A stretch of 39,389 nt of DNA, from positions 1-39,389 of IMG/VR virus record IMGVR_UViG_3300037322_000310; one strand, given 5' to 3'. This document shows positions 13,750 to 39,001 of the stretch, one piece after another. The position numbers were made by a program, and so were the translations under genes. The DNA is from a virus. How positions within the stretch are numbered: position 1 is the stretch's first letter; every line of letters starts with the position of its first letter. Below the pieces are notes generated by a model. It saw only the letters and a list, made by a program, of their open reading frames with translations, was not told the DNA's origin and ran no database searches.

Positions 13750-14157
13750 GACGGAATACCAGCCTGATGGCGACAGTGTGAGGCAACTCACATAAAGGGG
13801 GTAAGGTCACATAACCCCGCCGACTTCGGTCGGTCAACTCAGGCAAGTGCAGTCAATCCCGCGAGGGGTTCTTCACCGGGGTCACCCGACTGGAGAAACT
13901 GCCAGACAGATAGAGGTCCTGTAGGGGATAAGGGAACGGCCGACGGTGGTTCCCAAAAGGAGGGCTTGGCGGCCCTTGGCCTCTCGCCAAACTGTTTGGT
14001 CACATGACAAAGCACAAGGTCACAAGTTCGAGGCTTAGCGGCCAAGGGCGGTGATCAGTTTCTCAGGGTTCACATCCTGTTTGACGATCTTGGTAGCCCT
14101 TAGCAGGGTGACGGATATGAGGCGACTAGCATTCCTTTGGCGGAAACGTCACGGGAA

Positions 14158-15231
14158 CTAGGTGATAGCTCGTCTCGGTGGCTTGCACAATCTAGCTCAG
14201 CGGTAGAGCAGCGGACTTATAATCCGATGGTCGAAGGTTCAATCCCTTTGGTTGTTATAAAACGCAAAGATTGTCACGACTGCATGTGAAAGACGCCTAA
14301 TGCCGTAGGGTTTACCCAATGCGGCCCGACCTGATCTCGCAAGGTGATGGTTGGTTGGTGGAAGAAGTTTCGTTGGGCCCGCAAGCCCTTAATGGCTGGA
14401 GACAGTCAACGGGATCGCAACTGCCGAATATCATGCAGTGTCACCGCTAATGCCAGCGGTCCCGTGAGAACCGGGAAAAATAGGCGGCGTTGATCCGGAA
14501 CTAGGCTACCGCAAGGGGCTTGGTGGATAAGTTGGCAAGGTGACTCGCAAGGTCACTGTAATCCAGCGAATGACGGATCGTAGTAGGTGTAATCTCAGCC
14601 TGCTCTTATTCACGACTTATTGCGGCTCAGGGATGCATCTACGCCCCGGTTAGTTGGTTGCAAACAGCAGCAGGAAGATGGTAAGAGTGTTGCTAGGTGA
14701 CGCTCGATGTGACGAACCGCCGCAGTGCTCGGCTTAGTAGGACGAAAAATTACCTGATCCGCAGTAAGTTGTGAGTCGGTTTCTACATAGGCCCAGCAAA
14801 GGAGGTTAGCTACCTTCTCCTCGGTGCCCGCAGGTCAGGTCGATCCCAGCTACTCGTATGCAGACGGATCGTCGAAGCGCTAGGTCCAGTAACGTCGAGC
14901 CGTGGCTTGGTGCATTGGGAGTCGCTGCAAACCCGCTGGGTCTTTGTAGACATCGATTTCACTCGTAATAAAGCCCTTCTTGCTAGACACGCAACTTAGC
15001 GTGCTGGTTAATTAACACTAGGTTGGAAAGTCTTCGGTTAGTGATCTTAGGCGGCTTTGAAGGGCCTTATTACAAGTGATTTATTTGGCAGGTGGTTGTC
15101 GCACTGGATGGTTGTGGGTCTGACACATAATCGTCGTAAGTGTTCCGGGAGGATTTAGGCAACACGGTCTACGTGGTGTGACTTGATCGCGCATCACTGT
15201 GTGCTGTGGGGGTTCGACTCCCTCCACCTAG
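14158..15231 (+). other. Long-range tRNA-like closure in the giant RNA
   Basis: CTAGGTG at 14158-14164, followed by a D-arm-like ATAGCTC region, can pair perfectly with CACCTAG at 15225-15231. The latter sits directly after a textbook T-arm (GGGGG, TTCGACT, CCCTC; 15208-15224). The geometry is that of a tRNA acceptor stem plus T-arm with about 1 kb inserted, as in tmRNA. A second CTAGGTGA lies at 14693. No CCA follows (CTACC). Could be chance or a structural mimic. Confidence 0.4.
14186..14257 (+). tRNA. tRNA-like element, Ile(UAU) anticodon, no CCA
   Basis: Canonical D-arm (TAGCTCAGCGGTAGAGC), anticodon loop CTTATAA (UAU, reads AUA), T-arm GAAGG-TTCAATC-CCTTT and acceptor CACAATC/GGTTGTT with one mismatch. 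No CCA is encoded (ATAA follows) and the anticodon stem has a mismatch, so it may be a structural tRNA mimic within the giant RNA rather than a working tRNA. Confidence 0.55.
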
Positions 15232-16463: not shown

Positions 16464-16539
16464 TGGTGATTAGCTCATTCAGGAGAGCGCCTGTTTTACA
16501 AGCAGGAGGTAGCAGGGGCAGAGCCTGCATCACCAACCA
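16464..16539 (+). tRNA. tRNA-Val(UAC) with GGCAGAG T-loop
   Basis: Acceptor TGGTGAT/ATCACCA plus ACCA, D-arm GCTC-ATTCAGGA-GAGC, anticodon loop TTTACAA, T-stem GCAGG/CCTGC enclosing GGCAGAG instead of the near-universal TTCRANY. The same loop occurs in the tmRNA here. Confidence 0.88.
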
Positions 16540-17246: not shown

Positions 17247-17322
17247 GCTTCGTTAGCTCAGTTAGGAGAGCGCTGCTACGACATGGCAGAGGTCGTAGGG
17301 GCAGGACCTACACGAAGCACCA
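17247..17322 (+). tRNA. tRNA-Val(GAC) with GGCAGGA T-loop and C33
   Basis: Acceptor GCTTCGT/ACGAAGC plus ACCA, anticodon arm CTGCT-ACGACAT-GGCAG (C at position 33), T-stem GTAGG/CCTAC enclosing GGCAGGA. D-loop AGTTAGGA shares the AGGA ending with the other Val tRNA. Confidence 0.87.
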
Positions 17323-21477: not shown

Positions 21478-21513
21478 TCAGCTCAGAAAATTCGAAGCAC
21501 TCGAAATTTTAAG

Positions 21514-21542
21514 TTGACAGTGATGGGCGAATCGCTTATTAT
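21514..21542 (+). promoter_or_regulatory. tmRNA promoter
   Basis: TTGACA (21514-21519), 17 bp, TATTAT (21537-21542), with AATTTTAAG upstream. Spacer holds GCGA-A-TCGC. Predicted start about 21549. Confidence 0.75.
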
Positions 21543-21548
21543 TCTCCT

Positions 21549-21923
21549 CGTCAAGTGCTTCGGCACGAAGACTATGGTCGTAGAAGGCCATCGAAGTTGA
21601 ACGGAGACGCGGGGGCAGAGCCCGCCGCCTCCACCATCGCTTCCGAGCTGCGAGGCTCAGAACTTCGAAGACACGGCGGTAACCAACCCGCAGGGCCTCG
21701 GAAGCGTTGATGGGGGCGAATTAGGATCGATCCGTAAGACCGATGTGGAGAAGCGCCCCGTTTAGATACCGCTCGTTATGCGGATCAAATTCATCAACTG
21801 TCAACGACAATGATGTGGTCGTCGCCCGCGAAGAGATTCGTCTCGCCGCGTAAGCGACAAAATCCCTAGGGCTTCACACCCTTAGGTGGCGCGTGGTCCC
21901 GAGCGTAGCAACAGTTTCGGGAC
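21549..21923 (+). ncRNA. ssrA: Circularly permuted two-piece tmRNA
   Basis: The acceptor piece ends with T-arm GCGGG-GGCAGAG-CCCGC, CGCCTCC and ACCA (to 21636). A spacer closed by CGCTTCCGAG/CTCGGAAGCG follows, then the coding piece from GGGGGCG (21712), which pairs with CGCCTCC including the alanine-type G3-U70. The tag frame 21800-21853 starts at a GTC codon and reads VNDNDVVVAREEIRLAA then stop; the alphaproteobacterial NDN and terminal LAA are kept. The resume codon is Val, not the usual Ala. Ends at the terminator stem 21896-21923 plus a U run. Rescues stalled ribosomes with host SmpB. Confidence 0.9.
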
Positions 21924-21934
21924 AACATCTTTTT
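21896..21934 (+). terminator. tmRNA terminator
   Basis: GTCCCGA / TCGGGAC stem followed by AACATCTTTTT. Confidence 0.75.
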
Positions 21935-21961
21935 CGCCAGCGCCTCGGCCTTCTGTTCTAG

Positions 21962-22030
21962 GCAGATGACAAAGAGGGGTATTCTGGCGACGTTGCCGAA
22001 GTGAATGAGGGTTCGACTCCCTCGCTCTGC
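21962..22030 (+). tRNA. tRNA-like element without CCA
   Basis: GCAGA/TCTGC ends, perfect T-arm GAGGG-TTCGACT-CCCTC, but the anticodon hairpin has a six-base loop GACGTT and no U33. No CCA (GTAG). Probably a degenerate tRNA or a structural mimic. Confidence 0.45.
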
Positions 22031-22033
22031 GTA

Positions 22034-22065
22034 GAAAGTCGGATAAGACGAAAGTCGGATAAGAC
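22034..22065 (+). repeat. Tandem direct repeat, 2 x 16 bp
   Basis: GAAAGTCGGATAAGAC occurs twice in tandem (22034-22049 and 22050-22065) between two tRNA-like remnants; possibly a scar of unequal exchange. Confidence 0.8.
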
Positions 22066-22130
22066 CGGATCGCAGTTTAAGTGGTAGAAATGTTTGGGAC
22101 TTGAGGTTCGATGCTCAACCTTCGAGTTGG
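22066..22130 (+). pseudogene. Decayed tRNA-like remnant
   Basis: D-arm-like TTTAAGTGGTAGAAA, a TTTGGGA loop (as in Pro(UGG)) and a T-arm TTGAG-GTTCGATG-CTCAA, but no acceptor stem and no variable region. Confidence 0.35.
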
Positions 22131-22525: not shown

Positions 22526-22972
22526 ATGACAACCATTGCTTATCGATCGGGCCTTCTGGCCGCTGATACCTTGATCTCCTACAGTAGCATCACCAATGGT
22601 TCTCGCAAGAAGATCGCTGAGTGTGGTCGCTACACGGTGGCCCTTGCTGGTATGGCGTGGATTCGAAAACCACTGGAACAGTGGTGCGAGGATGGTTGTC
22701 CAGAAGACAACGTTCCCCAGCCATTGATCGACAACGGTAGCGAGTTCGCTGCCCTCATCATTGACAACAAGACCGGCGAACTCTTTGAGTTCGACAATGG
22801 TTATCTCATTCCCATCTGCGCCGATTACACCGCAATCGGCTCAGGTGGTTTGCTCGCATTGGGTGCCATGGCCCATGGAGCAACCGCTGAGGAAGCCGTT
22901 CTGGCTGCCTCCAAACACGATAAGAACACAGGCGGCCCGGTGACCATCCTGTCCCTTCCAATCGCAGCATAA
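22526..22972 (+). CDS. HslV-like Ntn hydrolase (proteasome beta-fold peptidase)
   Basis: 148 aa. Starts MTTIAYRSGLLAADT, so removal of Met1 exposes a catalytic Thr as in HslV and proteasome beta subunits. The C-terminal part TAIGSGGLLALGAMAHGATA and EAVLAASKHDKNTGGPV matches the family, including the AIGSGG turn. No ATPase partner (HslU) is seen in the window, so it may act alone or with host HslU. GGAG ribosome site. Co-transcribed with the primase, eight bases downstream. Confidence 0.82.
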   Translation: MTTIAYRSGLLAADTLISYSSITNGSRKKIAECGRYTVALAGMAWIRKPLEQWCEDGCPEDNVPQPLIDNGSEFAALIIDNKTGELFEFDNGYLIPICADYTAIGSGGLLALGAMAHGATAEEAVLAASKHDKNTGGPVTILSLPIAA

Positions 22973-36236: not shown

Positions 36237-36265
36237 GATTTATCCGGAATGTATTACGTTGTCAA
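36237..36265 (-). promoter_or_regulatory. Promoter of the double-HTH operon
   Basis: Minus strand TTGACA (36265-36260), 17 bp, TAAATC (36242-36237). The -35 overlaps the stop codon of the upstream NAMPT gene. Confidence 0.6.
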
Positions 36266-37728
36266 CCCTGATAAACACGACGCCAGTCGGCGGCGTTTTT
36301 ACGAACCTGCTCCCATTTCTGGGTGTTGAGTAACACCGAATTTGCATAGACCACAACCAGATGATTCGTCCGTCCGTTAATGTCGCACTGGCTAATCGTC
36401 TGGAGCTTTCCAGAATCGTCCGCCCTGACCACAGCGAAACGACCAGCCTTGGATGCCTTACTGGGGTCAGTCGCCACTTCTTTGCGGACATCGCGGGGCA
36501 TCCCTGCGATCTGCACATAGGAAGTCTTCATGGCGAACCGGTGAGTGTCACGCTCTGCCTCGTGGACCAACAGCCCACCACCCGATCCGAACACCAGATT
36601 GTCCACTGACCACTTGTGGTAGGTCACACGCTGGAGGATGCGACGAAGACTATCCTCGTTGATCCCGTCGCCCTGAATGAGACGAACGTAATCAGGCAGG
36701 ACCCGGTAGCCCTTGTCGTTCACCGTCCAACCAACGAGTCGGCCGATTAGGTCAAGGCAGTGGACTACATTGATGATCGGGTCACCGGAGTCAGGCCGCA
36801 CCACCAACCGCATGTTCGACGCCTTGAGCCGTTCGAGCAGCCCGCCTTCACCGGCGGGCTTAAGCCACATACCGATGGCAGTATCCTGATCGTAGGTATC
36901 AATCACGACAGACACAGGGTAGCGCCCGCCGCCGAGGAACTGCTTGTCGCCGTGGACTTCCAGAATGCGTTCGAAGAACGCCATCTCGTTCTCCCGGCCC
37001 CACGACGTGGTGACCGAGTGTTCGGTGGCAGGAATCGAGAAGCCCGGCATTCCATCGAACTGGTAAGCGTGCTTGGCGAACCGGATGCCCATCAGGTTGT
37101 CAGTCACCTGAAAGTTCACGAGGTGGGCCATACCACCGATCGCAGCAGCTTCGGTCGATTGTGCGCCACGAGCGCCGAAGTCCACCATCAGCCAGTCAGC
37201 CAGTTCAGGCGTCCCACTTTCCGTCAGGTAATTCTCCAGCAGATTGTGCCAGCGCATCGAACGAGTCGCGATCGTGGTCGGATACCAAACAGCACGGAGC
37301 AACATGGTCTCGACGTAGGCAGCGATGCCAGCACATTCTTCATCGGTGGATTCCACCGTCACCAGCACCGTTCCCTGATCGACCACAGTTCCTTCCGGGA
37401 GGGCCCGGACTAGGACGGGCAGATAGCCAGCGTGTTTCTCGACTATCCGATCCCACACCACACGATTGAACGGGACACCGTGCGCGGAGAGTTCCGCTTC
37501 GGCTTCATCGATCATTGCAGTCGTGACCTGCTGCAACAGGTAATACCGCAGCGCATATTGCAGGCCGAAGAACTGGACGTGGGTGAACGCACCACCCTTA
37601 CGGGCTTCGATATAGCCGTAGCTCTTCTCGAACTCAGGGTGTTCGAACGTCCAGTGTGTCGCCTTGTAGGTGTCGGCGTTGAGGATCGGCTGGGTCAACA
37701 GCGTTCCGAGGTCATTGATGAATTGCAT
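36262..37728 (-). CDS. nadV: Nicotinamide phosphoribosyltransferase (NAMPT)
   Basis: 488 aa, family length. Makes NMN from nicotinamide and PRPP. Diagnostic segments: NADTYKATHW (N-terminus), VDFGARGAQS, PATEHSVTTSWG with the catalytic His, RPDSGDP, IQGDGI and FGSGGGLL. Start ATG overlaps the upstream stop (TAATG). It sits downstream of an NMN adenylyltransferase-Nudix gene, so the two form an NAD+ rebuilding route, known in phages as NARP2, that overcomes NAD-depleting immunity. Confidence 0.96.
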   Translation of the reverse strand: MQFINDLGTLLTQPILNADTYKATHWTFEHPEFEKSYGYIEARKGGAFTHVQFFGLQYALRYYLLQQVTTAMIDEAEAELSAHGVPFNRVVWDRIVEKHAGYLPVLVRALPEGTVVDQGTVLVTVESTDEECAGIAAYVETMLLRAVWYPTTIATRSMRWHNLLENYLTESGTPELADWLMVDFGARGAQSTEAAAIGGMAHLVNFQVTDNLMGIRFAKHAYQFDGMPGFSIPATEHSVTTSWGRENEMAFFERILEVHGDKQFLGGGRYPVSVVIDTYDQDTAIGMWLKPAGEGGLLERLKASNMRLVVRPDSGDPIINVVHCLDLIGRLVGWTVNDKGYRVLPDYVRLIQGDGINEDSLRRILQRVTYHKWSVDNLVFGSGGGLLVHEAERDTHRFAMKTSYVQIAGMPRDVRKEVATDPSKASKAGRFAVVRADDSGKLQTISQCDINGRTNHLVVVYANSVLLNTQKWEQVRKNAADWRRVYQG

Positions 37729-37919
37729 TAGACAATCTCCACGCAGTGAGTGCAGGCAGCGACATCCGGAAGTCCCATACTATCACAATCAATGTGTAGG
37801 GCCACCTTGGTTCCGTCGGTGAAAAGAAACTCGATGTTGTTACGGCTTGTCGCATCCATCTTTATGATCGTCTTACCAACGAAAAGATGAAGGGCTTTAG
37901 AAATCGGAACTTCCATCAT
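37728..37919 (-). CDS. Small hypothetical protein between NAD genes
   Basis: 63 aa, ATG overlapping the NMNAT stop (ATGA). Strand-rich (TIIKMDATSRNNIEFLFTDG) with CTHC near the end. No family recognised; coupled translation with the two NAD genes suggests a related role. Confidence 0.65.
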   Translation of the reverse strand: MMEVPISKALHLFVGKTIIKMDATSRNNIEFLFTDGTKVALHIDCDSMGLPDVAACTHCVEIV

Positions 37920-39001
37920 AGCACCGAGTTGAAACGAGTGGCGAAGTGATCGATGACGTTGAAGTGGTCTTCGAACATCATCTCACGGGTTACTTCATCG
38001 ATCGGCCACCAACGAGCCACGCTGGCATCGTCCTGTCCCCGGACGAGGGGCAGGTCCATGCTTAACGAAGTAAGATCGAAACCGTAGGCAACCGAGATCG
38101 TCCGCTTCCGGGTCGAGCGCCACGGATTGTCCAACAACTTCTCACCCTTACAGGCAAGCGCGAGAATCGCGAGATTCACGTCGATGTCAGTCTCTTCGAC
38201 CAGTTCCCGTAGCGCAGCTTGTTCGAAGGTCTCGTCCATCCCAACATGACCGCCGGGTAAGGCCCACAGACCCTCACCGGGCATCTGGCCGCGACGCACC
38301 AGTAACACGTGCCCGGCCATGATCACACAGGCATCGGCAGCCGTGAAATAGCGAGGATAGGGTTCTTGCGAGAACTGGTCGAGATAATAATTCATGAAAT
38401 GATATTCCCGGCGCATCTGATTGAAGCGCTCCGTGCTTACCCATTCCCGAAGGAAGCTGAAAGTCCCACGAGGGAAGATCGTCTCTCCAGTCTGCTGCTG
38501 AAACCGGACAAGCGTTTCGACCGCGTTGTCCTCTTCGGGGATGTCGTAGAGAATCTTCCGCAGCTTCGTGGCATCCAACGTCCCGTGAAGTTCCGGGCTG
38601 GCCGGCGTCACGCTGATCGATCCCCACTGGGGGAACAGAGTGAGATAGTAGGACGACCCATCCTTCGAATATCCGATCAGGGCGATTTTCGGATCAGAGA
38701 TCGAGATCGCCTTGGCCTGATCGGTGACGCATTTTTGGACAGCAGCTACCCAGCGGTTGTCATTCTCCTGATCTGCAATGCCGAGAATGAACACACGGTC
38801 CTGCTCGGTGGGAGTCAGGCTGGCCCGGATCATTTCACGAACCTCTTCGAAGGTGAAGGGGTTACGGAAATTGATCGGTTCACCAACGGAGCCAACAATG
38901 ACGAAAAGATATTGGGCCTTCTGGAGAGCCTGCTTGATCACAGTCATGTGACCAGCGTGGAAAGGGCGCATACGCCCGGCAAAAACGCAGATGTCATACA
39001 T
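37916..39001 (-). CDS. Bifunctional NMN adenylyltransferase / Nudix hydrolase
   Basis: 361 aa. Residues 1-170: nucleotidyltransferase fold with GRMRPFHAGHM (HxGH at 15-18) and ISISDP...GYSKDGSSYY, as in NadM-type enzymes; converts NMN plus ATP to NAD+. Residues about 220-361: Nudix domain with ALPGGHVGMDETFEQAALRE followed by LVEETDI; the box's last Gly is Asp. The fused Nudix domain may hydrolyse ADP-ribose, the product of NADases. AAGGAGACAG ribosome site. Confidence 0.94.
   Translation of the reverse strand: MYDICVFAGRMRPFHAGHMTVIKQALQKAQYLFVIVGSVGEPINFRNPFTFEEVREMIRASLTPTEQDRVFILGIADQENDNRWVAAVQKCVTDQAKAISISDPKIALIGYSKDGSSYYLTLFPQWGSISVTPASPELHGTLDATKLRKILYDIPEEDNAVETLVRFQQQTGETIFPRGTFSFLREWVSTERFNQMRREYHFMNYYLDQFSQEPYPRYFTAADACVIMAGHVLLVRRGQMPGEGLWALPGGHVGMDETFEQAALRELVEETDIDVNLAILALACKGEKLLDNPWRSTRKRTISVAYGFDLTSLSMDLPLVRGQDDASVARWWPIDEVTREMMFEDHFNVIDHFATRFNSVL

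Follow-up and report, generated by a model that had tools for sequence, protein, structure and literature searches.

A permuted alphaproteobacterial-type tmRNA with a valine resume codon in a phage contig, and the recurrence of that codon in a phage clade

Permuted tmRNAs carried by phages are already known, and so is a Val resume codon, which Helicobacter pylori has as GUA. Alanine is the usual residue at this place and not a defining one; Gly, Asp, Arg, Ser, Glu and Val resume codons have been recorded elsewhere (PMC1168896, PMC2862035). The locus studied here brings the two features together, and it raises the question of whether such a phage RNA works and what its valine start signifies. 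The window, that is, the whole stretch of 39,389 bases analysed (IMG/VR record IMGVR_UViG_3300037322_000310), is a virus contig akin to Erythrobacter phages vB_EliS-L02 and XM05 and Sphingobium phage Lacusarx, its closest isolates. The original prediction had read the locus as a permuted phage tmRNA that resumes at Val and encodes a tag ending in LAA, and that part of the interpretation stood, while the tie that it drew to the phage's own Val(GAC) tRNA did not. In our judgement, the locus probably represents a working phage-borne tmRNA of the permuted, two-piece alphaproteobacterial type, which would use the SmpB and AlaRS of the host and in which valine would be tolerated.

The identity of the locus was investigated with Rfam covariance models, a check that the original prediction had itself proposed. 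RF01849 matched 21510-21924 with 86.1 bits (gathering score 50, E 4e-22), and RF04321 matched 21576-21853 with 80.0 bits against a cut-off of 47. Both scores exceed the curated cut-offs, and on its sequence the locus is a permuted tmRNA of the alphaproteobacterial type. It closely follows the tRNA array of the window and consists of these features:

21514..21542, + strand: promoter-like TTGACA-17-TATTAT, with 11/12 consensus matches
21549..21636, + strand: acceptor half of the permuted tmRNA (RF01849/RF04321 alignments, acceptor pairing, G3-U70), its 5' end placed from the promoter-like site
21609-21625, + strand: T arm
21626-21632, + strand: acceptor 3' strand
21633, + strand: A73
21634-21636, + strand: CCA
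21637..21711, + strand: intervening segment between CCA and the GGGGGCG 5' strand
21712..21925, + strand: coding half of the permuted tmRNA (RF01849 alignment to 21924; 3' end approximate)
21712-21718, + strand: acceptor 5' strand GGGGGCG
21800..21853, + strand: tag frame VNDNDVVVAREEIRLAA with its stop (translation, register, A at -4, vB_EliS-L02 homologue by ARAGORN)

The acceptor half, which ends in CTCCACCA at 21636 with an encoded CCA, stands 5' of the coding half, and the two halves form an acceptor stem of seven pairs (GGGGGCG x CGCCTCC), G3-U70 among them, with A73 and CCA after it. The span 21549-21923 and the permuted order given by the original prediction were thus right. The promoter-like site, of which shuffled sequence yields 0.3 matches on average, ends at 21542, which would place the start of the RNA near the predicted 21549; a TTGACA with a TATNNT box occupies the same place in the related loci L003, L071, L072 and L073 and was not seen there in L002, L004, L078, L080 and L081. 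By analogy with known two-piece tmRNAs, the intervening segment is expected to be removed from the precursor. Several P2-helix pairs are mismatched in the Rfam alignment, the coding half taken by itself beats shuffled sequence in folding by only a moderate margin (z -1.75), and ARAGORN did not report a tmRNA on the window. A tRNA gene misread as a tmRNA was also considered and rejected, as neither RF00005 nor ARAGORN called a tRNA at 21549-21925.

The resume codon is GTC at 21800-21802 and the stop is TAA at 21851-21853, giving a tag of 17 residues with an RLAA end, so that the window does not carry the usual Ala codon. The preceding sequence reads TTCATCAACT|GTC|AAC|GAC|AAT. The frame in E. 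coli is set by the A (A86) that precedes the resume codon by four bases, and its change to C or U left no activity in the main assay (PMC2481249). In the window an A stands at -4 (CAACT|GTC) only if GTC is the resume codon, and the aligned position is GCC in Lacusarx and GCA in the alphaproteobacterial consensus; the A at -4 and the Lacusarx GCC at the same aligned place support the GTC register. Translation is in agreement, and ARAGORN read the vB_EliS-L02 homologue as a Val-start tag, VNDNDVVVARDEVRLAA. The predicted frame beginning with GTC and ending in LAA was therefore upheld, and a resume codon in another register, which had been named as what would refute the prediction, is disfavoured. 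The tag had also been called novel; it is not unique, L072 having the same 17 residues and many phages near variants.

The locus was compared with the closest known systems. Chromosomal alphaproteobacterial tmRNA (RF01849) has the same permuted order, G3-U70, odd GGCRGTA-type T loop, A at -4 and ANDN-type tag, but its resume codon is Ala in the cell tmRNAs examined. Lacusarx (KY629563; PMC5648845) bears the same permuted alpha-type tmRNA by a tRNA array, annotated, with the tag ANDNDVVTAEVRLAA, and has its upstream primase/RtcB neighbourhood in common with the window; it differs in its GCC (Ala) resume codon and in having no HslV-like gene between tmRNA and primase in the annotated region. The phages vB_EliS-L02 (OL955261) and XM05 (PV416404) have the same GUC codon and an HslV-like gene downstream, whereas their tag bodies (VNDNDVVVARDEVRLAA and VNDNDVVETPMALAA) differ slightly and their retrieved feature tables list no tmRNA. 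The parts of PMC9004378 considered here count 53 phage-borne permuted tmRNA genes and describe two-piece forms in methylophage Melnitz and other aquatic phages; the Melnitz gene lies under a glutamine riboswitch, and a Val start is not mentioned in those parts. The cellular tmRNA of H. pylori also has a natural Val resume codon, although it is GUA, not alphaproteobacterial, and joined to another tag end (PMC2862035).

The original prediction had the resume codon read by the phage's own odd Val(GAC) tRNA. ARAGORN found 32 tRNAs in the array, to which Rfam added two Val tRNAs that ARAGORN did not call:

16464..16536, + strand: tRNA-Val(TAC), GGCAGAG T loop (RF00005, 48.6 bits)
17247..17319, + strand: tRNA-Val(GAC), C33, GGCAGGA T loop (RF00005, 42.7 bits)

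The Val(GAC) tRNA is thus present and indeed odd, with C33 and a T loop lacking the usual TTC, and by codon rules it should be able to read GUC. Similar Val(GAC) tRNAs occur in L004 (4156-4231) and in vB_EliS-L02, the latter with U33 instead. The T loops of both window Val tRNAs are of the GGCAG kind seen in alphaproteobacterial tmRNA, and a narrow pattern for such Val tRNAs as common host tRNAs matched none of 58 alphaproteobacterial genomes. The proposed tie itself failed as a general explanation. Val-start tmRNAs were found with no detected tRNA in L057, L059, L044, L016 and L067 (phage records of 51-66 kb, which may be fragments), whereas Lacusarx, L080 and L081 have Ala starts with 24-25 tRNAs, and Lacusarx encodes Val(GAC) itself. 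No association of the Val start with the phage's own Val(GAC) tRNA appeared across the few records available (Fisher p 0.59), and Val starts do not track phage tRNA arrays. Since valine occurs in records where no tRNA was detected and alanine in Lacusarx, the explanation by the phage's own tRNA is not needed. A phage smpB was likewise sought and not found in 15 related records, while control genomes gave a signal, so the SmpB and AlaRS of the host are probably used.

We then asked how widely the Val start is distributed among phages. A pattern scan of IMG/VR for GNC at the resume position gave 66 contigs, and the real tmRNAs among them carried GCC or GTC, plus one Asp GAC (L054/L064) under the -4 A register. 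About two dozen distinct Val-start phage tmRNAs were recognized in IMG/VR, mostly from one supported clade, and ten related loci or phages, among them L004, L007, L009, L021, L033 and L036, were given Val tags by ARAGORN. With A, G or T as third base, almost only Ala appeared among the matches listed. A complete IMG/VR scan restricted to Val codons with a third base other than C added the GTG of L134, for which no acceptor half was located. With other first bases the single case was Ile (ATA, L262); together with the Asp GAC, it is an apparent unusual resume codon in phage tmRNAs. A further permuted Val case, L272/L273, has a different upstream sequence, and the two narrow patterns applied to one-piece phage tmRNAs returned chance matches and this same permuted case.

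When 146 distinct tmRNAs were placed on a tree without their resume codons, a branch of 30 phage tmRNAs, that of the window among them, was recovered (SH-aLRT 96), and 19 of these have Val. The residue changed at least nine times, five of them forced by starred branches; the exact numbers are soft because the tree is a quick one of a short RNA. Ala and Val toggle between near-identical tags, e.g., VNDNEPVTALRLAA and ANDNQPVTALRLAA. The start residue of the close relative L071 is ambiguous: near 2271-2290 its resume position reads GTCGCA, and these three differing bases either insert an Ala behind the Val or bring back an Ala start; it was entered as Val by the -4 rule in the tree counts. An A stands at -4 in 28 of the 30 clade members and in all 89 other phage tmRNAs, and G3-U70 is present in 30/30 and in every tmRNA of the set. 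Acceptor pairs 4-6 show compensating changes between the halves, and no clade member has lost any of the seven pairs, evidence in favour of a working RNA.

In cells, the Val start is almost absent. Approximately 85,000 species genomes scanned with the Val pattern gave 13 matches, of which four were real tmRNAs. Two are in Aureimonas genomes that also have a chromosomal Ala tmRNA, their Val copies matching L067 and L068, and a third comes from a Phreatobacter MAG, where its contig is phage-like; these three belong to prophages or a phage-like contig. The fourth, in a Hyphomonadaceae MAG, is chromosomal-looking and the sole such cellular case among these genomes (L099/L222; Val start, tag VNDNEAEEFALAA, 225 bits). 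Among 289 alphaproteobacterial genomes the Ala pattern matched 55 and the Val pattern one, namely the second tmRNA of the Aureimonas genome on which the sample was centred. The patterns are strict, and these cellular figures are comparisons rather than full counts. All 26 distinct unselected cell tmRNAs have an Ala resume codon, and the Val start as a host trait is not supported.

With respect to how the RNA may operate, we infer from the sequence that it is expressed, processed, charged and functional, and that its Val start reflects tolerance and not selection. It would be transcribed from its own promoter beside the tRNA array, and host tRNA-processing enzymes would cut the precursor into acceptor and coding pieces. 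Alanine charging would proceed via G3-U70, and host SmpB would deliver the RNA to stalled ribosomes, where translation would resume at GUC and add the tag Ala-VNDNDVVVAREEIRLAA, whose LAA end would feed host ClpXP. The resume codon would be held to a G first base and A at -4, and within these limits the clade may exchange GCC and GUC. E. coli tmRNA works with either GUC or GUA at this position, and GUA is the natural codon of H. pylori (PMC2862035), so that Val can be tolerated. Extra ribosome rescue during infection is the likely benefit to the phage and the one that we favour. Redirecting tagged proteins or freeing ribosomes during host shut-off, as originally suggested, is a plausible putative role; the literature has proposed that phage tmRNAs counteract host tagging (PMC5648845) and, in the parts of PMC9004378 considered here, that they maintain the hijacked translation machinery or help degrade host proteins.

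The Val start could instead be an adaptation, with GUC selected either because the tag start is unlike that of the host, so that phage tags would meet host adaptors or proteases differently, or because translation then resumes via tRNA-Val(GAC) and not tRNA-Ala. We consider this unlikely, though it survives better than the other alternatives. Phages show the Val start repeatedly and cells hardly at all, and the complete IMG/VR scan yielded one real GUD case. All 19 Val members of the clade use GUC, whereas the Ala codons vary (GCC 6, GCG 4, GCA 1; Fisher p 0.003, kinship uncorrected), and GUC makes up 35% of the Val codons in eleven window genes. This preference (19/19 versus 35%) exceeds what plain tolerance predicts and leaves room for selection. 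On the other hand, GCC becomes GUC by one C-to-T change, so that ancestry alone can explain the third base; the two versions toggle between close relatives, and Val starts turn up in phages where no tRNA was detected, Ala starts in phages that encode Val(GAC), Val tracking neither tRNA arrays nor the following gene:

22526..22972, + strand: HslV-like peptidase gene (phrog_1040, E 8e-31)

The MTTIAYRSG start and other invariant residues of this gene are kept in 13 relatives, and it lies just downstream of the tmRNA in L003, L004, L071-L073, L078, L080 and L081. Its distance past the resume codon is 539-1088 bases in nine loci, with Val and Ala starts both represented. A Val start tied to this neighbour was rejected, as the gene also stands next to an Ala (GCG) tmRNA in L080 and L081, and any functional connection of the tag with the peptidase is conjecture. 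It is doubtful that this alphaproteobacterial phage clade adopted GUC as a selected resume codon nearly absent from cells, giving phage-tagged proteins a tag start of their own and a handling unlike that of host-tagged ones, possibly with the HslV-like peptidase.

Several other elements of the window were observed. Between the tmRNA and the peptidase gene, where Rfam gave nothing at or above the gathering score, 21957-22130 holds a decayed-looking tRNA-like sequence with a GGTTCGACTCC T arm and no Rfam tRNA match. A GOLLD RNA (RF02032, 157.6 bits) occupies 14119-14601 with tRNA-Ile(TAT) embedded at 14186-14257. On the minus strand, adjacent genes for a nicotinamide phosphoribosyltransferase (36262-37728) and a cytidyltransferase/Nudix protein (37916-39001) suggest a phage NAD salvage pathway.

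It is quite improbable that the locus is a decoy or relic, that is, an RNA without tagging that sequesters SmpB or inhibits host tmRNA, or a decaying copy. Phage DS6A has a nearly tag-less form (PMC11915505), a similar form inhibits endogenous tmRNA in E. coli (PMC4131195), and ARAGORN missed the window copy; but the clade keeps an open tag frame, its stop and an RLAA-type end, together with the compensating acceptor changes and invariant G3-U70, and the TLD-only inhibitory form of the DS6A type is ruled out by the 17-codon tag frame with its stop. Least probable of all is a register one codon later, with GUC as the -1 triplet and resumption at AAC (Asn; NDNDVVV...), which would match the natural UAGUC of E. 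coli (PMC2481249) and the resemblance of CUGUC-GCA in L071 to E. coli UAGUC-GCA, but would put U at -4, a change that inactivates the E. coli RNA (A86U; PMC2481249). Against it stand the A that 28 of 30 clade members have at -4 when GUC is taken as the resume codon and the GCC of Lacusarx at the same aligned position.

The literature searched, which covered few subscription papers and not the tmRNA database, gave no account of a GUC start recurring within a phage clade. This recurrence indicates that phage tmRNAs do not merely duplicate those of the host, as this clade repeatedly swaps the otherwise conserved Ala for Val, almost always as GUC, and keeps it. The natural Ala/Val pairs provide test beds for the role of the resume codon, and they could tell ribosome freeing alone from a marking of proteins different from that by host tmRNA.
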